A program made the translations under genes and the position numbers. DNA of 42,529 nt from a virus. This document shows, piece by piece, positions 881 to 42,057 of this stretch. The notes beneath the pieces are model-generated. The model was not told the origin of the DNA. It saw only the letters and a program-made list of their open reading frames with translations, and searched no databases. The stretch spans positions 1 to 42,529 of IMG/VR virus record IMGVR_UViG_3300008050_000100. One strand, written 5' to 3'. Every line of letters begins with the position of its first letter. Position 1 is the first letter of the stretch.

Positions 881-898
881 CTTATGACCGAATCATAG
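881..898. promoter_or_regulatory. CTTATGACCG motif, copy a (promoter or operator)
   Basis: CTTATGACCGAATCATAG lies 32 bases upstream of the lipoprotein start and downstream of the replication-unit terminator. It is an imperfect inverted repeat (CTTATGA / TCATAG around CCGAA). Its first ten bases are identical to copy c at 23351-23360. Only a - strand gene is positioned to use it, so on the - strand it reads TCGGTCATAAG. Confidence 0.4.
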
Positions 899-9500: not shown

Positions 9501-10095
9501 GCAGCTTCTGCAGGATCTTGATTACCTGCTCGTCCCCGGTAGCCTTCCCCAGAGCTACAAGGACGTCACTGGCCTCGTCGGAGCGACGTCCTTCGAGAAT
9601 GTCGTGGATGCGGCACAGCATCCGCACTTCGTTGTCGGTCTTCCCCACGTTGCCGAACACTTGCTTGAACGGGCTCATGCGTAGGCCAAGATGGTCGCGG
9701 GCGCAGTCTTTCAGCCCGTGTCGTCCGATCCGATTCTCGTCGAAGAGCCAATCCGCGGGGATAGTGTCTTCGATGGGGCCGCGGATGATGATGCCGTGGT
9801 TCGCGGTCCAGTGAAGGTCGACCTTGGCGTTGGTCATCCGCTTGGCGACCTCTGGGTCTTCTAGTGTGTCTCGAAAGACCTCAAGAAGCCGGACGGGGCC
9901 CGCGATGCGGACATCGTGGTCGCTAAAGGAGAAGAAGCGAATGCGGGTCTTGATAGGGTCGAGGCCTGTCGTCTCTGTATCGTAGCCGTACACGGGAAGG
10001 CTCCCGAAGTACTCTGCCCAGTTCTCTGCCTCTTCCTTGTCCTCGATGTACATCGGGGGAGGCGTCCGGACGAACGACGAGGAACGTCGGGTCAT
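6547..10095 (-). CDS. polA: DNA polymerase I (family A) containing an intein
   Basis: The precursor is 1182 residues. An N-terminal 3'-5' exonuclease is intact: Asp39/Glu41 in YDTETT, Asn89-Asp93, and Tyr296-x3-Asp300. The polymerase domain has TVSGRLSSSKPNLQNIP near 490-506, motif A at Asp556-Tyr557-Lys-Gln-Leu-Glu561, motif B with Arg991, Lys995, Phe999 and Tyr1003, and motif C His1133-Asp1134-Glu1135. There is no 5' nuclease domain, as in many phage enzymes. An intein occupies residues 569-933, straight after motif A; without it the chain is about 817 residues and joins seamlessly as AHF/SGDP. It should be the phage replicase. The ATG at 10095 has GGAG upstream, directly below a 12-bp hairpin. 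Expression of active enzyme requires protein splicing. Confidence 0.95.
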   Translation of the reverse strand: MTRRSSSFVRTPPPMYIEDKEEAENWAEYFGSLPVYGYDTETTGLDPIKTRIRFFSFSDHDVRIAGPVRLLEVFRDTLEDPEVAKRMTNAKVDLHWTANHGIIIRGPIEDTIPADWLFDENRIGRHGLKDCARDHLGLRMSPFKQVFGNVGKTDNEVRMLCRIHDILEGRRSDEASDVLVALGKATGDEQVIKILQKLHKSVDAGFVLKNKQLLKMARDTELAARTTGKAGYILDFLNLVGDVGHMPAAERESLRKWWDDPELAKEAHEVLQYRLRKRIQIDRDPLDYLRLIVGDYASLDAWSSNALVEQVYQSALSAVSIGFDEEEEEEVTLLDFYENTSKPFTRVLWNMERRGMSIDLEAAAELERPMREAMGKVERKIIKAAGADINVNSTKDLLALLFTYDEATDTWLDPFGDPPVHMTSGGESGIKKPSTKAAVLEGFAERGLQVAKDIVEFRKLAKLHGTYVDKVRDWVDLRGRAHTSLNQSGTVSGRLSSSKPNLQNIPAKGEAGRQIRQLFVAGTWGVCDPQWCMDELVDVPVPSLPDDFPMTLIVADYKQLEMRIMAHFCLHRNMAVTLAGGGKMPIGQMVRDEWCGEVESYNFETGEKIPCAVVAHFKNGAPVRHAPYRGGLRPEDWTVLRHEGAPWMKLIATDEHYIYRPNGARSQLKDLKIGDSILFDSPNLQGGAFQMVLGSLLGDGNFKKGRSKTSEGTFHGASFYHSNKQEAYFRFKEGVLAPWTTRIGHDGKMHRGHLRASFQLERLWDAMYKGGKKCPTIAALMRLDPRGLAIWYADDGNLSRDSRCQDPTKGFCASIANVRITEEEVDFLGSLFDLPFRKWKNGFGVCGENAEKFLRLIEPHMPASMKYKVPEHLRTEETSGWDESVSPVTPVKIIEKRAGRAGEAQMGCGAGSKYDITVEESHKYFAQGLLVSNSGDPSMIDAIRNGQDLHCKTAERAAGYDYEDVVEAKKAVDGDLDREATPRDYELVGVRSNMKAVGFGLIYGIGAVKLGRQLGFPVSESLSKRAGRVFFKCPKAEETIKSYFSAYPYVKEWIDQTHEDCANHLFVQTYTGRFRRLPDIDSSERGLQAMARRQSVNSIIQGSAADLTNEAMIRCESDPELRRLGVRMLLQVHDELVFEVPDDPKFIEPAKKRIKELMEYLDDLEVPIEISMGTGANWEDAK
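7297..8391 (-). mobile_element. Intein with LAGLIDADG endonuclease in polA
   Basis: The 365-residue insert begins at Cys569 and ends at Asn933, with Ser934 as the next extein residue. Splicing motifs are present: N-terminal Cys, TDEH (Thr653-x2-His656) and a terminal Val-Ser-Asn. The usual penultimate His is Ser. Two endonuclease helices, LGSLLGDG near 693-700 and LAIWYADDG near 788-796, mark a LAGLIDADG homing enzyme. It sits between motif A and the SGDP segment that all family A polymerases share, a known type of hotspot. Boundaries were checked on the DNA (TGC at 8389-8391, AAT at 7297-7299). Confidence 0.92.
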
Positions 10096-17667: not shown

Positions 17668-17683
17668 CTTATGCCGGACTATG
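17668..17683. promoter_or_regulatory. CTTATG motif, copy b, in divergent region
   Basis: CTTATGCCGGACTATG lies in the 86-base gap between the divergent replication and virion units, 39 bases before the - strand GTG and 33 before the + strand ATG. It shares CTTATG-C-CGG with copies a and c. Two TATG elements lie ten bases apart, one helical turn. It may act as promoter or operator for either unit. Confidence 0.4.
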
Positions 17684-17715
17684 TTAGGGTTTGTAGCGCC
17701 CAAGGGGGTTTCACG

Positions 17716-19101
17716 ATGAGAGTGATCGATTTCCACGACGATCGCGGTACTGCGTTCCTGGCGGCCGGAGAGGCCCTCCCAGAGCTGCTGAAAACAGGGC
17801 AAGCGAAGGAGAGGACGGACCTCGGCCTTCGTGACTACGCCCTGATCCTGGTAGACAGGGACGATGGGTTCTCCGAGCACCCCAAGTTCGCGTGCTACGA
17901 CGAGGCCAGTACGTGGATGTCCTTATGGTACCTGGAAAATGGCGACCATGGCCTACCTGCTGGGGCGGAGAAAGTAGCTGCCGCTAATCTCGTAACGATT
18001 GCAGCAGAGCAGGGGCTGGACGTGCGTGGTTCGTTCCCTCGAGTTGTGTCGCTCGCCCAGAAGGAGGCGGCCACCGCGATCGAGTACGGCATCCTAGCTA
18101 CCTTCATCGCCGTGGGCCTTCTAACTGCGGGTAAGGTACTAACCTCGCAGGCTCGCACGATGGTTGCGCAGTCGGCAAAGGGTAGGGAGCCCTACCAGCT
18201 TCAGAACCTCCCGCCCAAGATGCAGGCAGCAGTCCGGAAGCACGATCCACAGGGGCCATATACCCGCCTCTCGGTGGCGAGTACTCTACTGGAGGCGTTC
18301 AAGGCGGGCACGATTACGAAGCAGGATTTCCAGCGGCACTACGACCTGGAACCCTTCGTCTCCGGAAATAAGATCTCCAAGAAGCCCTCCTTTGGAAAGA
18401 CGGCATCAGCCCCAGATTCCCGAAGGGTAGTGGTCTCTCGAAGGGACTTTGCTCCATTGCCCTCTCCGGCTCCCGCCAAGATGGCGGCGTTCGACAAGGT
18501 GGCGCAGATGGCGGAAGGCTGGGACTACCTGTCGGGATACGACCGCCGTTGCGCTGCCCTCGAGGTGGAGAAGCTCGCGGGACTTGTGGGGATCCCCGAG
18601 AAGATTCAGGAGTACATGGGGCACGGAGCCGGCCCGCACATTCGCGACGAGATGGCAGTCCGTGCACGGAGCTACGCGAAGACGGCTGAGGTGGCGGCAG
18701 ACTACGTCCGTGTAGGAGAGATGGCCAAGGCCGGCGCACTCGATCCCGAAGACGCGGTCGAGGCGATTCACATCCTCGACGAGGCCAGCGGTTTCGTGGT
18801 CCCCGACTGCTACGGCAATCGAATGCACGACCCCTACCGGTGTGTGTACGGCATCGAGAAAGAGGCGGAGTACTCGTGGATTGACGGGGGCCACTACGTA
18901 AACGGAAGGCAGCTACAGCAGTTCGCAGCATCCCCCGCGTCGACCTTCGCCATGGGCGACTTGTTCATCGGCAAGACCGTAACTGCCTTCCGTCTTGCCC
19001 CGCTCAAGACATTCGAAGCTCTCCCGCGAGAGCAGAAGATCCTCGTAGCGCGCCTGGCAACACAGTCTGGCTATAGCGACGACGGCAACATCCTGACGTA
19101 G
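17716..19101 (+). CDS. Virion-block protein with Flp-pilin-like segment
   Basis: The product is 461 residues; the ATG at 17716 has AAGGGGG upstream, and an upstream extension has no site. Residues 1-105 form a compact alpha/beta domain that resembles unnamed N-terminal domains in other large phages. At 118-140 is a hydrophobic helix preceded by AATAIEYG, which is strikingly like the start of Flp/Tad pilins (a Glu at +5 and Tyr at +6 after the cleavage site in those proteins). After it come a Lys/Pro-rich linker with KTASAP and a helical C-terminal region with several Met and Tyr. One membrane segment is predicted. It opens the virion unit and is followed 10 bases later by the next gene. Function unknown; a membrane-contacting internal protein is one option. 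Confidence 0.65.
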   Translation: MRVIDFHDDRGTAFLAAGEALPELLKTGQAKERTDLGLRDYALILVDRDDGFSEHPKFACYDEASTWMSLWYLENGDHGLPAGAEKVAAANLVTIAAEQGLDVRGSFPRVVSLAQKEAATAIEYGILATFIAVGLLTAGKVLTSQARTMVAQSAKGREPYQLQNLPPKMQAAVRKHDPQGPYTRLSVASTLLEAFKAGTITKQDFQRHYDLEPFVSGNKISKKPSFGKTASAPDSRRVVVSRRDFAPLPSPAPAKMAAFDKVAQMAEGWDYLSGYDRRCAALEVEKLAGLVGIPEKIQEYMGHGAGPHIRDEMAVRARSYAKTAEVAADYVRVGEMAKAGALDPEDAVEAIHILDEASGFVVPDCYGNRMHDPYRCVYGIEKEAEYSWIDGGHYVNGRQLQQFAASPASTFAMGDLFIGKTVTAFRLAPLKTFEALPREQKILVARLATQSGYSDDGNILT

Positions 19102-20789: not shown

Positions 20790-22763
20790 ATGCAGTACAT
20801 CTCTAGCGAGACCAATCGCTTCAACCCGCGAGGCACCGGTACGTCTTCGGCGGCGTCGGGCCGCTCTTTTGGGATGCGATATCCGTCGCCGTTCTTCGAC
20901 GTCGCCCAGCAGTTCCTCCCCGAGACCCAGAGGCAGCTGCTTCATTGGTGTAAGTACTACGCTCTCACCAACCCGATCATCAATGCGGCAGTGTCAAAGC
21001 TGTCCGAGTATCCGGTAACGAAGCTCATCTACGAGACGGAGGATGATGCCCTACGTTCCTCGTACGTGGCGTTGGAGAAGCATCTTGCGCTTCGGCGATT
21101 CCAGGTAGAAGTTGGCCTGGATTTCTTCACCTACGGGAACACCTTCGTATCGGTGTTCTTGCCTTTCGACCGCTACCTCCGCTGTAAGAACTGCAACAAG
21201 AGACACTTGGCGAGGGAGCACCGAAGTCGGTACCGTTGGAAGCAGTTCAAGTTCCACCTCAAGTGTTCAAGGTGCGGACACGGGGCCCCCGCGGAGGTCA
21301 TCGACGTCGCGGTAAAGAACATCCACGGCATCAACCTCGTCCGCTGGAACCCCGAGCGGGTCTCCATCAAGCACAACGAGGTGACTGGCAAGTCGCGGTA
21401 CTACTACAAAGTGCCGAGGGCGATGAAGAACGACATCAAGCTCGGGGAAACGGACACCATCGAAACGTTGCCGTGGGAGTTCGTCCTGGCGGTCAAGCAG
21501 GGCAAGGCGCTTCTCTTCACCTCCGACAACTTCTACCACCTCAAGCGCCCGACACTGGCGCAGACCGACCAAGGTTGGGGAACGCCGCTCATCTACCCGC
21601 TCCTGAAGGATGCGTTCTACCTGCAGGTCATGAAGAAGAGCCAGGAAGCGCTGCTCATGGAGCACGTGGTCCCCCTTCGGGTCATCTTCCCCGGGCACAA
21701 CTCCCTCCCAGAGGGAAACTTCGGGACGATGAACCTGTCGGTCTACAAGGCCAAGATCGACTCGGAGATCGCCCTCTGGAGGCGCGACCCCAACTACATC
21801 CCAGTGCTCCCGGTGAACGTGGGGTACCAGCAGCTCGGAGGCAGTGCGAAGGCGTTGATCCTTCATCAAGAGTTCCGAATTCACGCGGAGAACATGCTTG
21901 CGGGCGCTGGCGTCCCCGTGGAGTTCATCTACGGCGGGCTGCAGTGGAGCGCGACCAACACGTCGCTTCGTGCGCTGCAGAACATGTTCCTCGGGTACAA
22001 CGGCCAGCGGGAGGAGTTGATCGTCGACTTTGTCTTGGGACGTGTAGCTGAGTTCTTGGGGTGGCCGAAGATCAAGGCGCACTTCGACCGGTTCCGGATG
22101 GCGGATGACCTGCAACGTTCCATGTTCTTCTTCCAGCTCAACCAAGCCGGGAAGATCAGCGACAGGACCTTGCTCGAAGAGACCGGTATGGACTTCCAGC
22201 AAGAGACCGAACGGAAGGACGAGGAGCTGGGGGCGCAGTTGCATGTGCAGCGGAAGTCTCAGATCGCGGGGGCAGACATCGCGGGGGAGGCGCAGCTTCA
22301 TACCGCTCGCTACGCCGCCAAGGCCAGTGCGCTTCAGATGCGTGCGCAGATGGAAGTACAGCAAGAGCTGCAGCCGGAGATGCAGCCCGGAATGGAGCAA
22401 CAGCCTGTAGGACCACAGGCGGGAAGCGGGGGCGATGCGGGGGCCGAGAGCTCCAACTCCTCTCTGCCTCCTGCAGTGGCTTCCCTGGGCTCGCAGCTCT
22501 CGACGGATTCTATGGCAGGAGGAGGTGGGGTCGACTTGGCTACGCTGGCGCGGAAGGCGGCGTCGTACCTTCGACGCACCGGAGAGGAGCGGGGGCAGCA
22601 GGTCATGCACCAGGAACTCGAGCGACTTCAGCTTGAGGACCCCAACCTGTACAAGTTGGTTGTACCGTTCCTCAACGACTCTGGCTCCAAGGCAGACCCG
22701 ACGAACGCGCTGCAGACCCCCAACCCCACCGGCCAGACAGACAGCAGCAGGGCCATTGGCTAA
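20790..22763 (+). CDS. Portal-like protein with zinc-ribbon insert
   Basis: The 657-residue protein has the layout of large-phage portals: an N-terminal region with 'ALTNPIINAAVSKLSEYP', a central beta/alpha core ('WGTPLIYPLLKDAFYLQ', then 'GLQWSATNTSLRALQNMF'), and a Gln/Met-rich, low-complexity C-terminus. Portals form the 12-subunit ring through which DNA is packed. A zinc ribbon is inserted near residues 132-162 (CKNC ... CSRC), not usual in the family. ATG at 20790, one short gap after the Gly/Ala gene. It is the first strong head-module call; the terminase lies 18 kb away, which is common in large phages. Confidence 0.7.
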   Translation: MQYISSETNRFNPRGTGTSSAASGRSFGMRYPSPFFDVAQQFLPETQRQLLHWCKYYALTNPIINAAVSKLSEYPVTKLIYETEDDALRSSYVALEKHLALRRFQVEVGLDFFTYGNTFVSVFLPFDRYLRCKNCNKRHLAREHRSRYRWKQFKFHLKCSRCGHGAPAEVIDVAVKNIHGINLVRWNPERVSIKHNEVTGKSRYYYKVPRAMKNDIKLGETDTIETLPWEFVLAVKQGKALLFTSDNFYHLKRPTLAQTDQGWGTPLIYPLLKDAFYLQVMKKSQEALLMEHVVPLRVIFPGHNSLPEGNFGTMNLSVYKAKIDSEIALWRRDPNYIPVLPVNVGYQQLGGSAKALILHQEFRIHAENMLAGAGVPVEFIYGGLQWSATNTSLRALQNMFLGYNGQREELIVDFVLGRVAEFLGWPKIKAHFDRFRMADDLQRSMFFFQLNQAGKISDRTLLEETGMDFQQETERKDEELGAQLHVQRKSQIAGADIAGEAQLHTARYAAKASALQMRAQMEVQQELQPEMQPGMEQQPVGPQAGSGGDAGAESSNSSLPPAVASLGSQLSTDSMAGGGGVDLATLARKAASYLRRTGEERGQQVMHQELERLQLEDPNLYKLVVPFLNDSGSKADPTNALQTPNPTGQTDSSRAIG

Positions 22764-22765
22764 AA

Positions 22766-22788
22766 GGTGGCGCGACTAGCGCACCACC
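22766..22788 (-). terminator. Hairpin between portal and - strand island
   Basis: GGTG-GCGC at 22766 onward pairs, with one bulge, to GCGC and CACC at 22779-22788. On the - strand the stem is followed by TTTT (A run at 22762-22765), so it can end the - strand island; it also lies just past the portal stop. Confidence 0.45.
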
Positions 22789-23090
22789 AGGGACAGTACG
22801 ATCGAGTAGTCCCCGCACTCTTCGCAGTGCCCGTCTGTCCAGTACGGTTGTCGTTCCCCGTCAACCAGGCGTGCGCACACTGAACAGAACCAGGACTGCG
22901 TGCAGTTGATGTAGTAGCGTTCGAGGGCAGTACAGTCGGCGCAGTTTACCATCCCACAGAGGCGGTCGATTAGGGGGCACCACGCCGCTTTGGTGGTCTC
23001 AGAAGTCCCCGGTACCCGTTCTGGCAGGGCTTCGGGGGGCTGCAGCGCCTCTATGGCGCTGCGAAGTTTAGCCCTGCGGTCTACTCCCAC
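22776..23090 (-). CDS. Cys-rich protein of the - strand island
   Basis: The product is 104 residues with about ten Cys: a CPLIDRLC pair, CADC, CTQSWFC..C and CEEC near the end, enough for two metal sites. The N-terminal 30 residues are a basic helix with Pro. The GTG start at 23090 overlaps the small membrane peptide gene by ten bases, implying coupling; the ribosome site is weak. It is oriented against the virion genes around it, as a moron-type insert would be. Possible roles include binding of host or phage polymerase by a zinc protein, but no evidence selects one. Confidence 0.6.
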   Translation of the reverse strand: MGVDRRAKLRSAIEALQPPEALPERVPGTSETTKAAWCPLIDRLCGMVNCADCTALERYYINCTQSWFCSVCARLVDGERQPYWTDGHCEECGDYSIVLSLVVR

Positions 23091-23350: not shown

Positions 23351-23360
23351 CTTATGACCG
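23351..23360. promoter_or_regulatory. CTTATGACCG motif, copy c, before the RNA polymerase
   Basis: CTTATGACCG ends 14 bases before the RNA polymerase ATG and lies at the end of the 200-base gap between the - strand island and that gene. It is identical to copy a over ten bases. A TTGGGT lies 17 bases upstream of TTATGA, so a -35/-10 reading on the + strand is possible. Confidence 0.4.
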
Positions 23361-23374
23361 AAAAGAGGCGGTAG

Positions 23375-26300
23375 ATGGCGAACCTGAATCCACAAGGAGA
23401 GTTCGCGGCGCTGAAGGCGCGCGTCAAGGAGACTCTCGAGAGGCAGTTCCCCTTCGAAGGCCGGAAGCACCGGCTAGAGCTGCTGTCTGTGGAGGTCATG
23501 GACTCGGACACTCCTGGTTCCAGTCTTCACATCGACAACGTGAAGGCCCAGCAAGATGCCAAGGAGGGCGGGAGAACGTGGGCGGTGCCCGTTCGGGCGT
23601 CTTTGCGCCTGGTGGATGTCGAGACCGGTGCGGAGATTGACTCTGCACGCCTGACGCTCCTGCGCCTACCCAAGCTGACCAAGAGGTACTCGTACATCGT
23701 GGAGGGCCACGAGCGTCAGCACGACTCGGTGTTTCGCCTCCGCTCACGTCCGTACCATTTCGTAGCGGGCAGCGGGAAGGTGCTTGCTCGGTGGAACTTG
23801 GCGAAGGGGCTGGGATTCGACATCAACATCAATCGCGCCACCGGCGCCATGAAGATGCGACTCAGTTCTTCAAACATCCCGATGTACTCCATTCTCAAGG
23901 TACTGGGTGTGTCTGACACCCGTATGGAGCGTGCGTGGGGCCCTGAAGTTCTTCGCGCGAACATGAAGGGAGCTCGGCAACGTGAAGATGTTCTGAAGGC
24001 GTACAAGGCCCTCAAGAGGCCGGTCAAAGGGGAGGCTCCGCCTACGGAAGCGGATGCTACCGCCTTTGTCCGCAAGGCCTTTCTTACGGGGACGGAGGTC
24101 CGTCCGGACGCGATGCTCTCAGCCTTTGGGAAGGAGTTCACCCATGTGAATGGGGAGAACCTGCTGTTGTCCACCAAGAAGGTACTGGGAATCAGCAGCG
24201 GAAAGGAGAAGCCCGACGATCGACAGTCCTTGGCGGCCAAGGACATCTTCGGGACGGCGGACTTCATTGTGGAGGCCCTCGACAAGAAGGCGTGGGAGAT
24301 CAAGCGTAGGATTCAGGCAAACCTGGACCGGAAGACCAAGGTCTCGGACATCATCTCCCCCTATGCGTACACCAAGATCCTCTCGAGCGTCTTCCGTCCC
24401 TCCCAGCGTCCGGACCAGACCAACCCGTTGCAGTTCGTCTCTGGCTATCTACGTACTACGATTCGTGGCGGAGACTTCGGCGGGGTGGCGGGGGAGCAGG
24501 TCAACCTGGACAAGGATAAGCGGATCAGCCCTTCCCACCTGGGTTTTTTGGACGTCGTCCAGACACCCGAGTGTTGGCCCCCGTACGCAGAGGTGTTCAC
24601 TAGAGAAGGCTGGAGGCGATGGGATAGTGTCGGGGAGAATACTCGGTTCCTGTGCCGGGAAGGCGAGCACGCCTTTTTTGCAGAGGCAAAGAGACTCCAT
24701 GTCAGCGAGTACAGTGGGCTCTTGTACTGTCTGGACCAGGGGAAGATCGCCTATGAGGTGACTCCGAACCACCGAATGTGGGTAAATACTCCCTGGCGGC
24801 CGGACGAGTGGAGGTTCGTTACCGCCGATAGGGTTCACGGGAAGGATCGAAGATTCGATACGGGTCACGGGCTTGTTCGTGGCGGGGAGCTTTGTAGCTT
24901 CTCCCTTCCTGTAGTCGAGGGGAACAACTCGTCCAAAAACGTCACGGAACCCATTGATATGACGGACTGGGCCGAGTTTATGGGGTGGTTCCTTTCCGAG
25001 GGGTCTTGCTACTTCAGGGAGGCAGGGAAGGCGTCTAGGTACAACGTCAGAATTCATCAAGTCAAGAAAGCCCATCCCAATGAGTACGCCCGGATCGGCG
25101 CGCTTTTGGACAGGCTGCCGTTCGATCATCACTGGGACGGGGAGGACAAGTGCCTGTCCATCACGACGAAGCAGCTTGCCTCCTACTGCTCGAAGTTTGG
25201 TAAGGCGCACGAGAAGTTCATCCCCGACTACCTCTTTGACGCGCACGAGGACGCCAGAGAGGCGCTGTTGGAGGCGTTGCTCCTAGGAGACGGGCGCATT
25301 GGCTCTGTTCGAAAAAACGGCAGGAGCTACAAGCAACTTGTATACACGACTACCAGCGAAACGTTGGCCCGGGACGTAGAGCGTCTAGCGGTGTCTTTGG
25401 GCTACCCGACTCGGATTAGTTCCTACGAGGACAAGAGAGAAGAGAGATACCTAGCGACGTTCGAGGTAAGGTTGCTTCAGCACAGGTACCGGACCGCTCG
25501 TGCTCGTCACCCGAACTACCCCGCCAAGTACGAGACCAAGCCCTACTCCGGGAAGGTCTACTGCGCGACAGTTGAGGGCGGGCAGCTTTATTGTCGAATG
25601 CCCGGCAAGGTAGGTTTTTGGTCGGGCAACTCGGAAGATACGGGGATTGCCCTTCATCTCCCCCTCGGTGCCCGGAAGGTAGGTAACGACCTTCACACCA
25701 GTGTTTACGACCGGCGGAAAGGTGAGTGGGTCCACGATGCGACCCCCGCTATTCTGGAGCGCTCTGTTGTCGCATTCCCCGACCAAGTACGGTGGGAAAA
25801 GGGTAAGCCGGTCCCGCTTTCGGATGAGGTAACCGTCTACGACTCCGACAAGCGCACCGCCCAGAAGGCGTGGAAAGACGTCGACTACGTCTTGTCTTCT
25901 CCGAAGGCGATGTTGTCGTTCTCGGCCAACCTCATCCCGTTCTTGCAGAACAACAACGGGAACCGGGCCATGACGGCCGCGAAGCAACAGGAGCAGGCGG
26001 TCTCGTTGGTGCACCGTGAGGCGCCGCTGGTGCAGTCCAAGACGGACGGGAAGGCTACCTTCGAGCAAGTGTTGGGAGGGGTGAACGCGCACTTGGCACC
26101 GATTGCGGGAACTGTGTCGCGCATTACCAAGGAAGAGATCGTCATCACGGGTGCCCGCGGAAAGAAGGCAGCAGTCTCGCTCTACAACCACTTCTCGCTT
26201 AACGGCGGGAAGAACATGATCCACGCAGAGCCGGTAGTGAAGGTCGGCGACGTCGTGAAGAAGCACCAGTTGGTGGCAGATACGAACTTCACCAAAGACG

Positions 26301-29300
26301 GAGTCCTGGCGCTCGGGACGAACATCCGTGTGGCCTACCTGCCGTTCCACGGGCTCAACTTCGAAGACGGCATTGTGGTGTCGGAGTCCGCAGCGAAGAA
26401 GCTCACATCGTTGCATCTCCACGCTGAGTCGCTTCGCATGTTCCCCGGGTACGTCCTCGATAAGAAGCGATGGGCCGACTACTCTCTGCCCGAGAAGGCG
26501 TCAGGCGCGCGCCTTTCGAAGCTGGACGACCGGGGCATCATCCGCCCAGGGGAGACAGTGGAGCACGGGGATGTCCTCGTGGCGGCACTGGCACCTACGG
26601 AACCGGACTCTGCGGTGGCTCGCGACCTGGCCAACATCCGTCGGTCACTGGTAAAGGACTACGCAGACCGTTCCTTGGTTTGGGACCACGACCACGGCGG
26701 GAAAGTCATCCGGGTCTCAAGCTCGAAGGACAAGATCACCGTCTATGTTCGAACTGAGGAACGTCTACGTACGGGGGACAAGCTCTCCGGTCGGCACGGT
26801 AACAAGGGCATCGTGTCTCGGGTGATCTCCGACCACGACATGCCCAAGGACAAGGATGGGAAGCCAGTACACGTTCTACTGAACCCCGCCGGAGTCCCCA
26901 GCCGCATGAACGTCGGGCAGGTCCTCGAGACCGCGGCGTCCAAGCTGGGCAAGAAGAAGGGCAAGGCATTTGTCACTGAGAACTTCCGCCCCGGTGCTGA
27001 CTACGCCCAGGAAGTGAAGGACGCGCTCAAGAAGGAAGGCCTTTCGGATACCGAGGAGCTCTTTGACGCTGAGTCCGGGAGGTCCCTCGGCCAGGTGATG
27101 GTGGGCGACCAGTACATCTTGAAGCTGCACCACATGGTCGCCAAGAAGATGACCGCACGATCTTACGGCGGCGCGTACTCCGCCCACGGCGCACCCCCCT
27201 CGGGCTCGGGTATTCCGGGAGGCGGTCAGAAGTTCGACCAGCTCCTCACGTACGCGATGCTCGCACACGGAGCCAAGCACAACATCCGAGAGGCCGCCAC
27301 GTACAAGAGCGACGTCGACCAGGATGACGTGTGGGTGGCGATCATGACCGGCAGGCCTCTTCCCGACCCCCGTCCGTCCCGCGCGATGCACAACTTCGTG
27401 CAGCTCTTGAAGGCTATGGGGATTCACGCGGAGAAGAAGGGGGACAAGTATCTCCTGGCTCCGATGACCGACAAGCAGACGGAGGCGATTAGCAACGGGG
27501 CACTCAGTGCGCCTAGCAAGACTCTCTGGGGCAGGGGGGAGCGAATCCTCGAGGAGAAGGGAGGCCTGTTTGACCCCAAGCTCACCGGGGGTTTGAACGA
27601 GAAGGGGCAGTACTGGTCCCACATTGACTTGGCGATTCGAATCCCCAACCCTATTTTCGAAACGCCGATTCGCTCGCTCCTGGGAGTCACGAAGCCGGAG
27701 TTCGAGGCGTTGGTGGGGCCCAAGAGCTCGAAGGGCTTCGAGGAAATCACCGAGAGGCTGTCGGCCATTGACGTGGGGGCAGAGCTGAAGAAGTCCGAGG
27801 CGGCCTTGCCGAAGCTCAAGGGTGCGCCGCTAGACCGTATGTACCGCAAGACCCGCTATCTTCAGGCGCTGCAGAAGCTGGGGGTCTCCCCCCTTGAGGC
27901 GTACACGAACAAGAAGATCCCCGTGCTCCCGCCTGCGGTACGCCCCATCTCTCTGGGCCCTACGGGGGACCTGATTACGGACGACCTGAACACGATCTAC
28001 CGTTCGGTTGGGCAGATCAACGAGCAGCTCCATAGTACGGACCCCGCCACCCCCGCGTCGAAGGTGCAGGCCATGCGCGCTCACCTGTACGACGCCGTGA
28101 GGGCGCTGCGTATTTCAGGCCTCGATCTGGGGGAGGGGGCCAAGACGCGACACCACCGCGGGCTCCTCGAGAAGGTGAAGGGTACTTCTCCCAAGACCTC
28201 TTTCTTCCAGGGCACGGTGCTCTCTCGCCGCCAGGACCTCTCTGCTCGGTCCACTATCGTTCCCGAGCCCAACATGAGCTTGGACGAGGTGGGGGTTCCC
28301 CTGCCGGTAGCCATGGAGATGTACAAGCCTTTCGTTGTTCGCGTCCTAAAGCAAGAGTACGGCTACACGCCTTACAAGGCGCTGAGGTCGATCCGGAAGA
28401 ACGAGAGTGTAGCCGTTGATGCGCTGCACAAGGTGGTCGCACAGCGGCCTGTGATCATGAAGCGTGACCCGGCGCTGCACAAGGCCTCCGCCATGGCGTT
28501 CCGCCCTCGGATCGTCAGTGGCAAGGCCATCGCACTCCACCCCTTGGTTACTGGGGGGTTCAACGCAGACTTCGACGGCGACGCCATGGCGCTGTTCGTT
28601 CCGGTTTCGGAGAAAGCGGTGGACGAGGCGTATGGGATGCTTCCGTCCAAGAACCTATTCTCCCCGACCCACGGCGGTTTGATGACCGTTCCGGGACAGG
28701 ACTCCCTCTTGGGGCTCTACCAGGCCACGGGGTGGGAAGTGAAGAAGCCCGCGAAGAAGCTGACGAGGAAGGAGGCGGTGCTCCAGGTGCATTCTGGCGC
28801 GCTCGGGCCCAACGAAGTCGTGTCGGTTAGCGGCAAAGATACGACGGGCGGGCGGCTGATGTTGGCGGACTCTCTGCCACCTGCGATGCGTAACGATTCG
28901 GCGCTGCTCTACGATGCGACCTTCCGTCTGGATAAGCGAGGCCTCAAGAAGATGCTGTCGAGAGTGGCCCGTGCGCACCCGGAGCACTTCGCGAAGACCG
29001 TGGACAAGTGGAAAGACCACGGGAACCGGCTCTCGTATCTTCACGGGAGTTCGTTCTCCCTCGATGACTTCCACGACGGTAAAACGCTGCGTGAGGAGAT
29101 CTTGGCCCCGGTGAAAGCGGAAGAGAAGCGTATCCGGAGCCGGAGAATCTCGAAGAACCGGCGAGACGCGTTGATCGTCGATCTGTACCAAAAGGCCGGC
29201 AAGGAGATGAAGCGACGAGGCGAGGCTCGGTACGAGTCTTCGTCGAACCGTATCTACGAGTGGGCTGCTTCCGGAGCTCGCGGCGGATGGCGTCAGTTCG

Positions 29301-30601
29301 TCCAGCTGGTGATGGGTCCACTGTTGGTCAACGACCCGCAGAACAACCCAGTACCTCTGCCCATCACCAAGTCGTTCGGCGAGGGTTTGTCTTTCTCCGA
29401 GTACTGGACCTCGATGCACGGAGCGCGAAAGGGAACGCTGGACCGTGCCCAGGGGACTCGAGATCCTGGTGCGCTGACGAAGGAGATCGTCAACACGGTC
29501 ATCAATTACCAAGTGACATCAGACGACTGTGGTACGGCGAACGGCATCGCGATGTCGCCTACTGAGGCAGATTTGGTTGGGCGCTATTTGGCGAAGGACG
29601 TCAAGCCGTCGGGAACCGGAGTTCTTCGCGCCGGCACTCTGGTTACGGGGCAGATTCGAACTCAGCTCCGAAACGCCAACGTAGCCAAGGTCGTGGTTCG
29701 CTCCCCACTGCGGTGTGAACAGTCCCGGGGGATTTGCGCTACGTGCTTCGGGTTGGGGGAGCGCGGGAAGCTGCACTCGGTCGGCACCAACATCGGCGTC
29801 ATTGCGGGACAGGCGCTGGGCGAGCCCGTAACGCAGCTCACGATGAAGACGTTCCACACGGGCGGCACCGTCGGGGGTAGCTCTGACGTTGTGGATGCGT
29901 TCAGTCGCGTGAAGCAGTTGTTCGCGGTCCCCAAGACGCTCCCCGGGTCTGCAGTAGTCTCCGAAGTAGACGGAACGGTGACCAAGGTGGCGCCGGCGGG
30001 CACGGGTGGTTGGAGTGTTTTCGTGGGGCGAAAGGAGCACCACATTCCTGCAGACAGGAACAAGCTCCCGACTGTCGTACTTGGGGCGCCTATCAAGAAG
30101 GGGGCCCCGCTATCTTCAGGCCCCATCAACCCCCACGACATCCTTCGTCACTCGCGGAACATGAACGTGGTCAGGAACTTCTTGGCTACCGAGCTCGACC
30201 AGGCGTACAACAGCTCGGGGCGGTTGACCGACCGCAGAAACATCGAGACGGTGGTGCGTGCGTCCACCAACTTGGCCCGGGTGCTGGATGCTCCCGGCCA
30301 CCCCGAGTACCTACGGGGGCAGAAGGTTCCGCTGTCCGAGCTCGAGGCGGCAAACAAGGCGGCGAAGCTCGAGGGACGTCCGCAGGTCAAGTATGAGCCG
30401 TTGCTACGGCGCATGGACCGCATGCCGCTGGACGGACGGGAAGATTGGCTGCAGCGCCTGAACTTCCAGCGAGTGCAGGAGACGCTGTCTGAAGGGGCGG
30501 CGCAGAAGTGGACTTCGGATATCCACGGGTCTACGATTGCAGGAATCGCTCACGGCGCGGAGTTCGGCTTTGCCCCGCCAAAGGCTAAGCGTAGGAGATA
30601 G
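23375..30601 (+). CDS. rpoBC: Fused beta-beta' RNA polymerase with intein
   Basis: One 2408-residue chain carries both catalytic subunits. The beta part shows the GDKLSGRHGNKG block at 1134-1145 and ends with the C-terminal SRAMHNFVQLLKAMGI segment near 1335-1350; beta' starts within about 20 residues. Beta' has VLPPAVRP near 1517, LSRRQDLSAR near 1616, the NADFDGD metal motif at 1730-1736 (Asp1732, 1734, 1736), and the second zinc site (Cys2052, 2114, 2121, 2124). The first beta' zinc site is missing. An intein fills 400-752; spliced, the enzyme is 2055 residues. Start ATG 23375 has AGAGGCGG upstream. The gene lies inside the virion block, so the enzyme may be packaged and inject with the DNA; this is inference. 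No sigma gene is in the window. Confidence 0.95.
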   Translation: MANLNPQGEFAALKARVKETLERQFPFEGRKHRLELLSVEVMDSDTPGSSLHIDNVKAQQDAKEGGRTWAVPVRASLRLVDVETGAEIDSARLTLLRLPKLTKRYSYIVEGHERQHDSVFRLRSRPYHFVAGSGKVLARWNLAKGLGFDININRATGAMKMRLSSSNIPMYSILKVLGVSDTRMERAWGPEVLRANMKGARQREDVLKAYKALKRPVKGEAPPTEADATAFVRKAFLTGTEVRPDAMLSAFGKEFTHVNGENLLLSTKKVLGISSGKEKPDDRQSLAAKDIFGTADFIVEALDKKAWEIKRRIQANLDRKTKVSDIISPYAYTKILSSVFRPSQRPDQTNPLQFVSGYLRTTIRGGDFGGVAGEQVNLDKDKRISPSHLGFLDVVQTPECWPPYAEVFTREGWRRWDSVGENTRFLCREGEHAFFAEAKRLHVSEYSGLLYCLDQGKIAYEVTPNHRMWVNTPWRPDEWRFVTADRVHGKDRRFDTGHGLVRGGELCSFSLPVVEGNNSSKNVTEPIDMTDWAEFMGWFLSEGSCYFREAGKASRYNVRIHQVKKAHPNEYARIGALLDRLPFDHHWDGEDKCLSITTKQLASYCSKFGKAHEKFIPDYLFDAHEDAREALLEALLLGDGRIGSVRKNGRSYKQLVYTTTSETLARDVERLAVSLGYPTRISSYEDKREERYLATFEVRLLQHRYRTARARHPNYPAKYETKPYSGKVYCATVEGGQLYCRMPGKVGFWSGNSEDTGIALHLPLGARKVGNDLHTSVYDRRKGEWVHDATPAILERSVVAFPDQVRWEKGKPVPLSDEVTVYDSDKRTAQKAWKDVDYVLSSPKAMLSFSANLIPFLQNNNGNRAMTAAKQQEQAVSLVHREAPLVQSKTDGKATFEQVLGGVNAHLAPIAGTVSRITKEEIVITGARGKKAAVSLYNHFSLNGGKNMIHAEPVVKVGDVVKKHQLVADTNFTKDGVLALGTNIRVAYLPFHGLNFEDGIVVSESAAKKLTSLHLHAESLRMFPGYVLDKKRWADYSLPEKASGARLSKLDDRGIIRPGETVEHGDVLVAALAPTEPDSAVARDLANIRRSLVKDYADRSLVWDHDHGGKVIRVSSSKDKITVYVRTEERLRTGDKLSGRHGNKGIVSRVISDHDMPKDKDGKPVHVLLNPAGVPSRMNVGQVLETAASKLGKKKGKAFVTENFRPGADYAQEVKDALKKEGLSDTEELFDAESGRSLGQVMVGDQYILKLHHMVAKKMTARSYGGAYSAHGAPPSGSGIPGGGQKFDQLLTYAMLAHGAKHNIREAATYKSDVDQDDVWVAIMTGRPLPDPRPSRAMHNFVQLLKAMGIHAEKKGDKYLLAPMTDKQTEAISNGALSAPSKTLWGRGERILEEKGGLFDPKLTGGLNEKGQYWSHIDLAIRIPNPIFETPIRSLLGVTKPEFEALVGPKSSKGFEEITERLSAIDVGAELKKSEAALPKLKGAPLDRMYRKTRYLQALQKLGVSPLEAYTNKKIPVLPPAVRPISLGPTGDLITDDLNTIYRSVGQINEQLHSTDPATPASKVQAMRAHLYDAVRALRISGLDLGEGAKTRHHRGLLEKVKGTSPKTSFFQGTVLSRRQDLSARSTIVPEPNMSLDEVGVPLPVAMEMYKPFVVRVLKQEYGYTPYKALRSIRKNESVAVDALHKVVAQRPVIMKRDPALHKASAMAFRPRIVSGKAIALHPLVTGGFNADFDGDAMALFVPVSEKAVDEAYGMLPSKNLFSPTHGGLMTVPGQDSLLGLYQATGWEVKKPAKKLTRKEAVLQVHSGALGPNEVVSVSGKDTTGGRLMLADSLPPAMRNDSALLYDATFRLDKRGLKKMLSRVARAHPEHFAKTVDKWKDHGNRLSYLHGSSFSLDDFHDGKTLREEILAPVKAEEKRIRSRRISKNRRDALIVDLYQKAGKEMKRRGEARYESSSNRIYEWAASGARGGWRQFVQLVMGPLLVNDPQNNPVPLPITKSFGEGLSFSEYWTSMHGARKGTLDRAQGTRDPGALTKEIVNTVINYQVTSDDCGTANGIAMSPTEADLVGRYLAKDVKPSGTGVLRAGTLVTGQIRTQLRNANVAKVVVRSPLRCEQSRGICATCFGLGERGKLHSVGTNIGVIAGQALGEPVTQLTMKTFHTGGTVGGSSDVVDAFSRVKQLFAVPKTLPGSAVVSEVDGTVTKVAPAGTGGWSVFVGRKEHHIPADRNKLPTVVLGAPIKKGAPLSSGPINPHDILRHSRNMNVVRNFLATELDQAYNSSGRLTDRRNIETVVRASTNLARVLDAPGHPEYLRGQKVPLSELEAANKAAKLEGRPQVKYEPLLRRMDRMPLDGREDWLQRLNFQRVQETLSEGAAQKWTSDIHGSTIAGIAHGAEFGFAPPKAKRRR
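24572..25630 (+). mobile_element. Intein with LAGLIDADG endonuclease in rpoBC
   Basis: The 353-residue insert runs from Cys400 to Asn752, with Ser753 next. It has TPNH (Thr463-x2-His466), terminal Ser-Gly-Asn (penultimate His absent), and two endonuclease helices: MGWFLSEG near 536-543 and LLEALLLGDG near 631-640. It interrupts the segment corresponding to the conserved TPEGPNIGL site of beta; the joined extein reads QTPE/SEDTGIAL. Codons TGT at 24572-24574 and AAC at 25628-25630 confirm the ends. Confidence 0.92.
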
Positions 30602-31552
30602 ATGGCGCGCGATCTCACTGGCTTCGGACTCCGCCCCGCAGTTCTGCAATTAGCAGAGGTTGTGGAGGTGTTTCCAGATACGTGGACCATGTCTACACGT
30701 ACTTTGATTGGCGCGCGCACGTTCAAGGACATGTCGATCCCCAGCCTCTACATGCACCGGTTTGACGGGGAGGGAGCACACATCATGCCGGAGGTCGGCG
30801 CGCTCTGCCTTGTCGCTGTGATCTCGGAGAAGAACGCCCGCGCTGTAGCACTATGCTACCTCCCGCACCCCGGAGAGCAGGGAACTAATCGAGGGAACCG
30901 ACCCACAATGGCTCCGGGAGACGTGGTCCTGTCTACCCGAGACGGGAACGCAGTGCGTGTGCGGAGAGGCGGCGTAGTAGAGGTGGAGGCTACTCCTACC
31001 TGTCGCACGGTCTACCTCCCTATCCGCGGGAAGATCTTGCACATCGCGGAGACATACGAGATGCACGCTCTCGGCGGGTCTCTTGTGTGGGCAACCGGTG
31101 ACCCCGACGAGTCCCCTACCAAAGACAATACAAAGGCTACCCTCGCACTGAAGGTGAAGGACTTCGCCGAAGATAGCGTGACCGCGACTGATCTGTTGAT
31201 GGGCGGGGGAGATGGCGCCGAGTTGTCCGTCTTCCAGGGTGGCGCCGTATCCAGTGAATCTCTACGGCAGCTCGCTACCAGGGTGGCCATGACTCAGGGA
31301 GGCGATGTCGAAATCTCCGCCTCGGGAACAGTGACCATACACGGTACGGGGATTGCCGACGCAGGGATGGTGGAGAAGGTGATCCTTGGTGAGACGTTCT
31401 TGACGGACCTTATGACCATGTTGACCGCCCTCCAGGCGGGGCTTTCTTCCTTTGGTATCGTAGTTCCCGATATCGGGACGATGATCGGCAAGATCACATC
31501 GTCACTTGCTGCTGGAACTCCCTACCTCTCCAACAAGACGAAGACGCAGTAA
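30602..31552 (+). CDS. Baseplate-spike (gpV/gp5-like) candidate
   Basis: The product is 316 residues; its ATG follows the RNA polymerase TAG directly, with AGGAGAT as ribosome site. An N-terminal OB-like segment (GALCLVAVI) is followed by Gly/Val strands (GDVVLSTRDGNAVRVRRGG) and a C-terminal region with 'GGDVEISASGTVTIHG', the repeated short-strand pattern of the beta-helix stalk in gpV/gp5 spikes, then a helix and a hydrophobic tail. Such proteins sit at the tip of contractile tails. If right, the phage is a myovirus. The identification is by pattern only, not by specific residues. Confidence 0.5.
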   Translation: MARDLTGFGLRPAVLQLAEVVEVFPDTWTMSTRTLIGARTFKDMSIPSLYMHRFDGEGAHIMPEVGALCLVAVISEKNARAVALCYLPHPGEQGTNRGNRPTMAPGDVVLSTRDGNAVRVRRGGVVEVEATPTCRTVYLPIRGKILHIAETYEMHALGGSLVWATGDPDESPTKDNTKATLALKVKDFAEDSVTATDLLMGGGDGAELSVFQGGAVSSESLRQLATRVAMTQGGDVEISASGTVTIHGTGIADAGMVEKVILGETFLTDLMTMLTALQAGLSSFGIVVPDIGTMIGKITSSLAAGTPYLSNKTKTQ

Positions 31553-32202: not shown

Positions 32203-33717
32203 ATGAGACTGTACACCGCGACACAAGAGCCCCTGTTCTTTACCACTCCGTCGCTGGCCGACCAGTTCGAGAAGGTCGGAGGGATCTCAAAGGTCCCCGA
32301 TGACGCTGAGAAGTGGCCTGCGCACGTGCGTAGTGAGATCTTGCGCACTCACCCCTACTTGGCCCGTTACGACGTCTCCATTGTCATCGACAAGAAGGAC
32401 GAAGAGTCGGGCTACGTCATGGGCTACGCGATGGTCCGAAACATGACCGGAAGGGTGATTCCGGCGCAGGAAGTAGGGGGCCAACGGAACTACGTCCGAA
32501 TCCCCATCATCGTGAAGGACCGCCAGCTCGAGAAGTTCAAGACGTTCGAGCTCGGGGGGACCATCTACCCGCTGACCAAGGCTCGCATCGAGTCGGCCAT
32601 GATTGACCCGCGAATCTTCGACAGCCCCGCGGACGCCCCGCGTCGCTCGAAGTCGCTCGTCAACGACATCATGCCGCCGTACCAACAGCGACAGGGATTC
32701 GGCCGGACCTACGACGCGGCGTCTGCCGGTCTGGGGACATTGGGCAAGGGTGCGTCTGCCAGTACGGGGGACGAGCTGATGCGTGAGGCTCTGGACCACC
32801 TGGCCATGGTCAAGGAGGCGTACGGCGTACCAGAGGGGGCGCAATGCTCCGCATCAGCTTCCTGGGAGGCTCGCTGGCTTCGGAAGTTCGAGAGCACCCC
32901 GCTCTACAAGGAGGCTGAAGCACTTCTCGTCGAGGACAAAGAAGATGCGCTGAACCGAGCTCGGCGGCGGGCGAAGTCGGCGGCCGAGGAGGTAGCCGAG
33001 GCGCATCTTCAGGTAGAGGGCGCGGAGCTGGAGGCGCGACTCGCACGACTCAAGCACGCCAGCCAAAAGGTTGCGGAAGCGCTAACGCTGGAGAAGCTGT
33101 CCAGTTGTCGCGAAGAAGGGTCGTGGGCCGACGAATTCGTCGGTACGCCTCTTCACGAAGCCGCACTGCTGTACAACGCGAAGTCTGCCGACATGCGACA
33201 CCGGCGGGAGACTCGGTGGGCCGCGAACCGTACGCAGTCCGTCAGAGAGGTCACCATGGCAGGCCTTGACGCGAAGCTGGCGGCCTGGACGTACCAGAAG
33301 ACGAGCGGCAAGCACTACCCCGGGTACAACGCCAAGGTGACGGTCGAGACGGGGACTCACGAGAAGTCCGCGATGATCCCCCTCAACTTCACCTCTGGTG
33401 ACCGCATCCCTGGGATGACGATGGCCAGTAAGGTGAAGAAATGGAACGTGGCCCCCGGCGTGGTGCCGTCGACCTACACCTTCTTGCGTATCCGAGGCAC
33501 CAACTACGTCATGGGCGTGTCGGCGGCCCTGTCGAAGAAGCTGTTGGCGGAGAAAGATCCCGCCAAGCTGCGCAAGATCCTCGCTGGCCCCATGCTCAAA
33601 GAGTACCGGTCGATGCAGGCAGGCAGGCCTTCTCCTGGGCTCGTCCTTCTCCTGACGGGAAGCGACAAGACTGGGTATTCCCAGATTGACCATGCGGCGT
33701 CGGCCGGAGGCGCCTGA
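32203..33717 (+). CDS. Large unknown virion-block protein
   Basis: The product is 504 residues from an ATG with GGGAGAA upstream, after a 42-base gap. Residues 1-150 form an alpha/beta domain with 'YVMGYAMVRNMTG' strands; the middle (about 240-330) is a long Ala/Glu/Arg coiled coil; residues 360-504 are beta-rich with Gly/Thr. It has a Gly-rich end. No family is known to me. Coiled-coil-containing large proteins of this type occur as internal or tail-measure proteins, but it is too short for a typical tape measure. The gap before it includes a possible TATACT element at 32178-32183 without a convincing -35. Confidence 0.55.
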   Translation: MRLYTATQEPLFFTTPSLADQFEKVGGISKVPDDAEKWPAHVRSEILRTHPYLARYDVSIVIDKKDEESGYVMGYAMVRNMTGRVIPAQEVGGQRNYVRIPIIVKDRQLEKFKTFELGGTIYPLTKARIESAMIDPRIFDSPADAPRRSKSLVNDIMPPYQQRQGFGRTYDAASAGLGTLGKGASASTGDELMREALDHLAMVKEAYGVPEGAQCSASASWEARWLRKFESTPLYKEAEALLVEDKEDALNRARRRAKSAAEEVAEAHLQVEGAELEARLARLKHASQKVAEALTLEKLSSCREEGSWADEFVGTPLHEAALLYNAKSADMRHRRETRWAANRTQSVREVTMAGLDAKLAAWTYQKTSGKHYPGYNAKVTVETGTHEKSAMIPLNFTSGDRIPGMTMASKVKKWNVAPGVVPSTYTFLRIRGTNYVMGVSAALSKKLLAEKDPAKLRKILAGPMLKEYRSMQAGRPSPGLVLLLTGSDKTGYSQIDHAASAGGA

Positions 33718-40243: not shown

Positions 40244-40260
40244 CTTATGGCAGGATTATG
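40244..40260. promoter_or_regulatory. CTTATG motif, copy d, before the terminase
   Basis: CTTATGGCAGGATTATG lies in the 46-base divergent gap and overlaps the terminase start codon. It holds a direct repeat, TTATGG, at an 11-base step. On the - strand it lies 33 bases before the 222-aa GTG. A TTGATA lies 17 bases upstream of TATGGC on the + strand. Confidence 0.35.
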
Positions 40261-42057
40261 GACGAAGATTACCCACCCATAACCGGTCTTTTGCCTGCTA
40301 TCCCGGAGGAAGACCTAACTGAGGAGTGGGAGTGGGAGTCCCCCGTTCTGGAGGCAGAGGCATGGGAGGTCCAGAAACACCTTGAGGAGATGAGCGCCGC
40401 CTACGAGCTCCGTCCATCGGACTTTATTGAGCAAGTCATCCAGTTCCCCACCGGAAAGGACCGGAAGCTCACCGCGTTCTCGTTCGAGAAACGACCGTAC
40501 CTTCGGCGCGTACACAACACCCCTTCCGACCGCATCCTCCTGATGACCGGGAGACAGGTTGAGAAAAGCACTTCACTGGCCATCAAGGCCTTCGTGTACA
40601 CGTGTCTGATTCCGCACTTTCGTGTGCTGTACGTCTCCCCCTCGAGTACCCAGACCAAACAGTTCTCCAACGACCGACTAAAAGAACTGATGGAGACGTG
40701 CCCGGCTCTGCGCACGTGGTTCCCCTCGAGGCTGACCGACAACGTTTTTGAGAAGAAGGCTATCAACCGGAGCCAAGTCACGCTTCGCTATGCCTTCCTC
40801 AACGCTGACCGGTGTCGTGGGCTTTCTGCGGATGGGATCTTCCTGGATGAGTTTCAGGACATCCTCCTGGACAACATCCCCGTCATCGAGGAGGCATCCT
40901 CTCACAGCCCCTTCCGTTACTTCGTGTACTCGGGTACTCCGAAGTCGGAAGACAATCCCATTGAGTACTACTGGGCGAAGAACTCTACTCAGAGCGAGTG
41001 GGCGGTCCCCTGCGAGCGCCACGGAACACCGAAGGACCCGGGCTCGTGGCACTGGAACATTCTGGACGAGAGCAACATCGCGCGGAAAGGGCTGTCGTGC
41101 GACCGCTGCGGGAACCTCATCCGACCCGACCACCCGTTGGCACAGTGGGTGCGGCTAGGGCCCCCGCTAGGAGAGGTCCAGTACGAGGGGCTGCGGATCC
41201 CCCAGCTCATGGTGCCTTGGGTTGCGTGGGAGGACATCCTCTACAAGCAGCAGCACTACCCTCGTGGGCGGTTCTACAACGAGGTCCTGGGACGGAGCTT
41301 TGACTCGGGTCAGCGCCCGCTAAGTCGGGCCGACGTCCAGAGGAACTGTGACGAAGAACTGTCGATGGCGGCTGAGAAGATCCGGGAGCTGATGCCCGAG
41401 CTCCGCCGCCGACCGATCTTCGCAGGAATCGACTGGGGACAGGACAGCACCAACTCCTACACCATCCTCGTGTTGGGTGCGTACCTGGGCACCGATAAGC
41501 GGATGACGGTGTTCTACGCACACCGTTTCGAGGGCCCGGAACAAGAGCCAAGAGTCCAGCTCGACAAGGTCAAGAAGTTCATCAAGCAGTTTTCTATTCG
41601 CCGAGTAGGAGTCGACTACGGTGGCGGGCACTTCCAGAACGACGAACTGATGCGGGAGTTCGGTACGGATCGCATCCATCGATACCAGTACTCCAACCCA
41701 CGAGAGTTCGTCCGGTGGGACGCCAAACTGGGACGGTACCTGGTCCACAAGCACGAGGTGCTGGGCTCCGTGTTTGCCGCCATCAAGCGAGGCGACCTGT
41801 TCCGTTTCCCACAGTGGAGCCAGTGGAAGGTGCCGTTCGCTTCTGACATGCTTTCGGTCTTCTCCGAGTACGACGAGAAGAGAAGGATGACTGCGTACAA
41901 GAAGTCCCCGAACAATACGGACGATACGCTCCACGCACTAGTCTTCCTGTTCCTCGCGTCGTACCAGCTCAACCCTCGTCCCGATGTGTTGATCCCCAGT
42001 CAGAAGATCGACCAGGACCTGGCGCGGCAACTGTCCCGGGCCCTGAGGGGGAACTAA
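40258..42057 (+). CDS. terL: Terminase large subunit
   Basis: The 599-residue protein has the terminase ATPase: Walker A GRQVEKST at 98-105 and Walker B IFLDEF with Asp197-Glu198, then the RNase H-like nuclease with Asp392 in GIDWGQD, Asp453 in VGVDYGG and the late Asp-Asp in 'NTDDTLHAL'. It packages DNA into the prohead and cuts the concatemer. The Walker A Gly before Lys is Glu, a variant I have met in other phage terminases. A small Cys cluster (Cys252 and Cys281-x2-Cys284) suggests a zinc site. The ATG at 40258 has GGCAGG upstream. It stands alone between two - strand genes. Confidence 0.93.
   Translation: MDEDYPPITGLLPAIPEEDLTEEWEWESPVLEAEAWEVQKHLEEMSAAYELRPSDFIEQVIQFPTGKDRKLTAFSFEKRPYLRRVHNTPSDRILLMTGRQVEKSTSLAIKAFVYTCLIPHFRVLYVSPSSTQTKQFSNDRLKELMETCPALRTWFPSRLTDNVFEKKAINRSQVTLRYAFLNADRCRGLSADGIFLDEFQDILLDNIPVIEEASSHSPFRYFVYSGTPKSEDNPIEYYWAKNSTQSEWAVPCERHGTPKDPGSWHWNILDESNIARKGLSCDRCGNLIRPDHPLAQWVRLGPPLGEVQYEGLRIPQLMVPWVAWEDILYKQQHYPRGRFYNEVLGRSFDSGQRPLSRADVQRNCDEELSMAAEKIRELMPELRRRPIFAGIDWGQDSTNSYTILVLGAYLGTDKRMTVFYAHRFEGPEQEPRVQLDKVKKFIKQFSIRRVGVDYGGGHFQNDELMREFGTDRIHRYQYSNPREFVRWDAKLGRYLVHKHEVLGSVFAAIKRGDLFRFPQWSQWKVPFASDMLSVFSEYDEKRRMTAYKKSPNNTDDTLHALVFLFLASYQLNPRPDVLIPSQKIDQDLARQLSRALRGN

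Follow-up and report, generated by a model that had tools for sequence, protein, structure and literature searches.

A fused beta-beta' RNA polymerase gene and a sigma-70-like companion in a lineage of bacterial viruses

Results

The fused gene and its product

We analyzed a 42,529-nucleotide stretch of viral DNA (hereafter, the window), a 42.5-kb IMG/VR virus record that is itself a fragment. One open reading frame at 23375-30601 (+) runs from ATG through its stop codon with no frameshift and no internal stop, and encodes a fused beta-beta' RNA polymerase (RNAP) of 2408 aa with an intein, or 2055 aa as the extein. The RpoB-like half, which holds the 353-aa intein, comes first and the RpoC-like half follows. 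On the 2408-aa protein, the Pfam models Rpb2_6 (E=3e-69, residues 910-1267), Rpb1_2 (E=2e-29), and Rpb1_5 (E=6e-24) match, and Rpb1_1, Rpb1_3, and Rpb2_7 match more weakly. Identity to bacterial RNAP is ~30%, and the top PHROG matches are 24349 and 25354, which we take to be bacterial-type subunits from their lengths only. The initial annotation, made from the sequence alone, had described a single 7.2-kb gene with the catalytic motifs of both beta and beta' and had suggested an HMM search for RpoB and RpoC domains; the open reading frame bears the description out, and in the Pfam search the RpoB hybrid/barrel domain is followed by the RpoC domains along a single chain.

The intein (C400...GN752 followed by S; LAGLIDADG_3) occupies residues 400-752 at 24572-25630 (+), between the TPE of the beta fork/rif region and SEDTG. 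We placed it by comparison with relatives and by its Pfam LAGLIDADG endonuclease match; in the 20 relatives compared, this site is free of inserts. Large inserts, presumed to be inteins, lie inside the catalytic DFDGD motif of three other loci (L014:9986-18907, L018:123-7865, and L019:9959-17701), the first of which has a further presumed intein in the trigger loop; the insert sites of these loci differ from that of the window intein. A family A DNA polymerase gene at 6547-10095 (-) carries a LAGLIDADG insert of its own, probably an intein, in which case inteins would sit in both the DNA and the RNA polymerase of the window phage.

The final strand of beta (LLKAMGIHAEKKG) leads directly into beta' (DKYLLAPMTDKQ) at about 27422-27463 (+), where AlphaFold2 models the joint (residues about 1350-1363) as a beta-hairpin at high confidence. 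A junction of only ~10-20 residues had been proposed; it is indeed short, but that length is an overestimate, as the observed joint is shorter and has no linker.

The beta GRHGNKG motif lies at 26789-26809 (+; residues 1139-1145), with K1136 just ahead of it and K1144 within it corresponding to E. coli beta K1065 and K1073, and the beta' NADFDGD catalytic Mg site lies at 28562-28582 (+; residues 1730-1736). Comparison with E. coli places the bridge helix, C-terminal zinc site, and trigger loop at 29402-29866 (+), and all three are kept. Invariant in 23 of 23 fused sequences (E. coli numbering) are beta E813, D814, K1065, K1073, and R1106 and beta' R425, D460, D462, D464, and H936. Absent relative to E. 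coli are beta SI1 and SI2, beta' SI3, the beta' N-terminal zinc domain (66-97), and the beta' C-terminal (omega-binding) tail, and a PF01193 search of the long relatives found no recognizable alpha subunit. The residues of the beta' clamp helices that contact sigma (R275, E295) are not conserved. Since rifampicin-pocket positions H526, R540, N568, and I572 are altered, the polymerase is predicted to be rifampicin-resistant, an inference from residue identity.

The AlphaFold2 model of residues 836-2035 (pLDDT 88.6, pTM 0.79) contains both barrels, and Foldseek searches with this core retrieve bacterial beta' (E 1e-40) and beta (E 7e-39). The structure prediction that had been proposed as a check therefore yields a confident core with a formed active center and no sign of a fold lacking one. 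One could still imagine a catalytically dead structural protein derived from an RNAP, as the virion location and the high abundance of its counterpart in particles of Salmonella phage Arash (see below) would suit such a role. However, the catalytic residues are kept across a diverse clade, the predicted fold is intact and confident, and the catalytic motifs of relatives contain inteins, which, we infer, are generally retained in such places only when the spliced product is important; we consider a dead protein very improbable. The best explanation is that the chain, after splicing, is a single, alpha-less and omega-less bacterial-type core, with the caveats that an omega gene itself was not searched for and that activity is unproven.

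Relatives and phylogeny

A first scan of IMG/VR returned 20 relatives, and a profile scan returned at least 565 stretches. In 99 of the 99 IMG/VR relatives fetched (~80 distinct loci; Arash and Vibrio phage D69 excluded), beta and both parts of beta' form a single ORF, usually of 2008-2235 aa (less at contig ends) and of 2580-2973 aa where inteins lie in DFDGD or the trigger loop. In the Arash-like sister clade, to which Arash and D69 belong, beta' is divided into two or three genes, never with a cut at the beta/beta' junction. Arash and D69 have beta fused to the N-part of beta', with the cut placed after the beta' barrel, where jumbo phages and cyanobacteria also divide beta' (PMC7598289), and many Arash-like members have a second cut in beta' ~100 residues past the joint, near the beta' N-terminus. 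The joint is unbroken wherever the sequence is long enough, in the fused and Arash-like clades alike, and the simplest reading, which remains an inference, is that it is ancestral to both.

In a 50-taxon FastTree phylogeny, the fused and Arash-type sequences form one phage clade (support 1.0) that adjoins the split RNAP of Yersinia phage GN1, with the Helicobacter fusion placed separately. The comparison with phage and cellular polymerases that the initial annotation had called for thus sets a phage clade apart from all bacterial sequences included; the tree has no archaea, eukaryotes, or cyanobacteria, and we make no claim on the depth of the phage branch. These data also bear on whether the gene might be an assembly or frameshift artifact, or else a captured bacterial rpoBC operon. 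Nothing beyond the general risk attached to metagenome contigs suggests an artifact, and an error at the junction is ruled out by the open frame and the identical fusion in all of the fetched loci, which come from separate samples; a captured host operon is excluded by the tree, in which the phage clade stands apart even from the Helicobacter fusion. We give this explanation almost no credence.

Two further kinds of record came up. A bacterial MAG contig (L118:48-4898) carries a compact fusion of beta and beta' that falls among cellular RNAPs, close to Bacteroidota, and is apparently separate from the Helicobacter fusion. Three records deposited as phage (Efs 1-1-1, MD-2021a, and SA 1306 Kay; L187, L190, and L191) hold separate cellular-type rpoB and rpoC genes, and we rejected them as phage RNAP carriers because they are apparently host contamination.

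Genomic neighborhood

The portal protein gene lies at 20790-22763 (+; E=4.5e-92 to Arash gp204), upstream of the RNAP gene in 86 loci, and the terminase large subunit gene at 40258-42057 (+; PHROG 675, E=1e-53; family profile, E=8e-69 to Arash gp1), with the terminase ~6 kb downstream in many loci. The earlier placement of the polymerase inside the virion genes is thus correct: across the family, its gene is bracketed by portal and terminase. Directly downstream of the RNAP gene is a conserved virion-strand gene (30602-31552, +; homologues in 90 of 101 loci), and another follows at 32203-33717 (+; 83 loci), whose product weakly matches the Arash virion protein gp218 in a profile comparison. 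The virion-strand proteins encoded at 17671-19101 (+) and 30602-31552 (+) have Flp pilin-like and TraA-like hydrophobic stretches and are conserved beside the RNAP. The gap between portal and RNAP holds a small cysteine-rich (zinc-ribbon-like) gene on the other strand (22776-23090, -; homologues in 35 loci) with its own predicted early promoter; its product is a candidate regulator. Replication genes also lie on the strand opposite the RNAP, and each genome has one RNAP (9 long contigs searched).

A sigma-70-like companion

Of 26 long fused-RNAP contigs, 22 carry a single copy of a homologue of the Arash sigma factor gp10; Arash and D69 bring the total to 24 of 28 records, the window not counted. 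Once contig orientations are taken into account, the gene shares the strand of the RNAP in every case. It is absent from the window, a 42.5-kb fragment. The profile was seeded by Arash gp10 and two weak Pfam matches that resemble it. The Pfam region-2 and region-4 models find almost no matches in the fused-RNAP contigs, and we discarded the reading that these phages have no sigma, as this was a failure of sensitivity where the gp10 profile succeeded. Among 50,697 phage records, only four, all isolates of the Arash/D69 type, match the gp10-like sigma over most of its length. An hmmsearch against PDB aligns it with sigma-70 homology regions 2-4 (E=1e-17), Sigma70_r3 is found in 21 of 23 members, and its top Foldseek matches are all sigma factors, with low TM-scores because the domains are placed freely. 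The gp10-like protein is a divergent member of the sigma-70 family, with homology over regions 2, 3, and 4. Its pairing with the fused core is unproven, given that the clamp-helix residues R275 and E295 are not conserved.

An early-strand motif

The motif G[GT][CT]ATAAG shows a strong strand bias across the clade and is present in the window. Arash has 30 early-strand copies of GGTATAAG and a single virion-strand copy; the motif has a conserved tail (TAA.GTGTA), and a start codon usually follows ~36 nt downstream. The same bias is found in 8 of 8 Arash-like contigs (22-42 versus 0-1 per strand; 0-4 for the reversed pattern) and in a basal fused contig (15 versus 0); Vibrio phage D69 has no clear bias (6 versus 3). 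Near the window GGTATAAG is nearly absent, and the related GTCATAAG is found instead. In five sequences of the fused clade, GTCATAA has 50 early-strand and 3 virion-strand sites (p=6e-12), and 23 of the 50 lie near early-strand gene starts versus 3.7 expected; the GTCATAAG sites have an independently conserved A-tract ~17 nt upstream and T[GA] at +13/14. The 7-mer was chosen by a de novo search of the early strand of two of these sequences (G001 and G024), so the bias there is partly selected; in the two others and the window, which were not used in choosing it, the count is 18 versus 0. It is rarer in the window's nearest relative, which has 3 exact GTCATAA plus variants.

With a matrix trained on relatives, we predicted four sites in the window, at 888, 17675, 23358, and 40251, all on the early strand, three of them with a ribosome site just after. 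The putative promoter GTCATAAG at 881-888 (-) is followed by an RBS and ATG, and GCCATAAG at 40244-40251 (-) by an RBS and GTG. GGCATAAG at 17668-17675 (-) precedes the helicase and replication genes; a similar site exists in the nearest relative, though across loci a promoter ahead of the helicase is the exception (1 of 34). The second GTCATAAG, at 23351-23358 (-), lies 17 nt before the RNAP start and points toward the small antisense cysteine-rich gene, ahead of which the motif recurs in 12 of 19 distinct loci (control, 1). A de novo motif search of the RNAP strand gave no clear late promoter. The -10 element of sigma-70 promoters has A-11 and T-7; TCATAA lacks both, from which we infer that recognition by the host is unlikely.

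The Arash particle

Virion proteomics exists for no fully fused member, only for the relative Arash. In Arash particles, the RNAP subunit gp206 tops the spectral counts, and gp216 (the C-part of beta') and the sigma gp10 are also detected (PMC10585845). By our own arithmetic on the published counts, spectra per residue are 2.31 for gp206, 2.00 for gp216, 2.00 for gp10, and 1.5 for the portal. The gp206/gp216/gp10 ratios are compatible with equal copy numbers, bearing in mind that spectral counts are coarse and that the preparation held 116 proteins, among them ribonucleotide reductases; the authors note possible carry-over (PMC10585845). The helicase gp217 (L193:762-2180), encoded beside the beta' C-part gene, has spectra per residue equal to those of the RNAP and may travel with it.

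Discussion

We think it probable that these phages package a late-made, single-chain core together with a phage sigma, and that this enzyme reads the early genes from G[GT][CT]ATAAG. The fused core would be made late, alongside the virion proteins, and assembled into the particle with the sigma-70-like factor; the holoenzyme would then enter the cell with the DNA and transcribe the opposite-strand early genes, starting ~7 nt downstream of the motif. The covalent beta-beta' joint may substitute for the alpha-dimer assembly platform. Our own evidence for this proposal consists of the fusion and its conservation, the predicted fold, the catalytic residues, the sigma companion, the strand-biased motif, and the gene strand. 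Packaging in the window phage, the pairing of sigma with the core, promoter use, and the role of the joint are inferred, and no transcript start has been mapped. The initial annotation had left the choice between a packaged early transcriptase and a new type of late polymerase; the Arash proteome, the sigma companion, the early-strand promoters, and the gene strand favor the former over the latter, with packaging and activity unproven in the window phage.

The polymerase could instead be a non-virion enzyme made after infection has begun, for middle or late genes, with host RNAP reading the early ones. As there is only one RNAP per genome, the late strand also needs a reader, and the Arash proteome may include carry-over. 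On the other hand, RNAP and sigma are both on the virion strand in every long relative that has both, with the RNAP between portal and terminase, and the phage-specific motif is a feature of the other strand, that of the early genes, so whatever reads it has to be on hand from the outset. We regard this alternative as unlikely, while acknowledging that a packaged holoenzyme does not account for late-gene transcription. It is also conceivable, if slightly more doubtful, that the phage sigma and the host core read the early promoters, and that the fused RNAP acts otherwise or with another factor: many phages without an RNAP pair sigma homologues with the host core, according to a review, and the fused RNAP shows poor conservation of the residues through which the clamp helices contact sigma. 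Against this, the sigma and this RNAP family occur together almost without exception, phages without that RNAP do not have the sigma, and core and sigma have similar spectra per residue in Arash.

We lean, though only slightly, toward the wider claim that a widespread lineage packages a two-protein holoenzyme which, once injected, transcribes from an early promoter of its own with no need of alpha, omega, or the host polymerase; such an enzyme would be a minimal sigma-dependent RNAP. In cells, polymerases that depend on sigma require multiple core subunits, which alpha holds together. If the claim is true, no sigma-type transcription machine would be simpler than this pair of one-chain core and matching sigma, which could serve to probe the purpose of alpha, omega, and the beta' zinc domain. 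It would also mean a host-independent start of infection that inhibitors of host RNAP might not stop, given the several changed rifampicin-pocket residues. The inner splits of beta', together with a joint that is never broken, bear on how RNAP subunits fuse and split. Fused-RNAP phages are a large, mostly uncultivated group of bacterial viruses, and Arash is an isolate with a laboratory host, so the key points can be tested now.

Comparison with known systems

In the rpoBC fusions of Helicobacter and Wolbachia, beta and beta' are joined at the same chain ends as in the phage. The Helicobacter fusion differs in belonging to the cellular clade, in its separate origin, and in keeping the beta' N-terminal zinc domain (Wolbachia was not compared). 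Like the window protein, the RNAPs of the crAss-like phage phi14:2 (gp66), YonO, and the P23-45 vRNAP/nvRNAP are single polypeptides with two barrels, some of them virion RNAPs; they retain little similarity to cellular RNAP, whereas the window protein matches standard Pfam models strongly (PMC10770324). The multisubunit-type RNAPs of phiKZ/AR9 jumbo phages also lack alpha and omega, and their virion version is thought to transcribe early genes, but they comprise 4-5 polypeptides, with two enzymes per genome and no sigma homologue, and are highly divergent (PMC7598289). The window lineage has one chain, one enzyme, and a sigma-70-like companion.

Arash (PMC10585845) and Vibrio phages D69, D148, and D181 form the sister clade, with the same junction, the same portal-RNAP order, and a gp10-type sigma. 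Arash further shares an early-strand promoter motif, and its RNAP and sigma are found in particles; it differs in that beta' is cut after the barrel (gp206 and gp216), and the fusion was not remarked on in the Arash paper (PMC10585845). Among described groups, mReC (Weinheimer and Aylward 2020) comes nearest; it is likewise a phage RNAP that can be aligned to bacterial beta/beta', forms one clade apart from cells, is widespread in metagenomes, and lies near virion genes. The mReC NADxDGD motif is present in the window protein, for which Pfam models (not COG0085/COG0086) of both subunits match. All 8 capsid proteins detected for mReC, in 8 of 97 contigs, are of the Gp23 type (PF07068) (Weinheimer and Aylward 2020), whereas PF07068 was found in 0 of 29 records of the window lineage, with the split-RNAP controls GN1 and RHph_TM30 positive. 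We do not file the lineage as mReC because it lacks the Gp23-type capsid protein that split-RNAP phages have, though the sequence sets likely overlap. Fusion is not mentioned by Weinheimer and Aylward (2020), and we found no report of a conserved beta-beta' phage fusion of this kind in open full texts (subscription journals and preprints were outside the scope). The initial annotation had presented a phage fused form as a new polymerase; the fusion stands, and part of the novelty does not, as mReC (2020) and Arash (2023) had been overlooked. The claim must be narrowed to a new architecture within a recently recognized deep clade of phage RNAPs.
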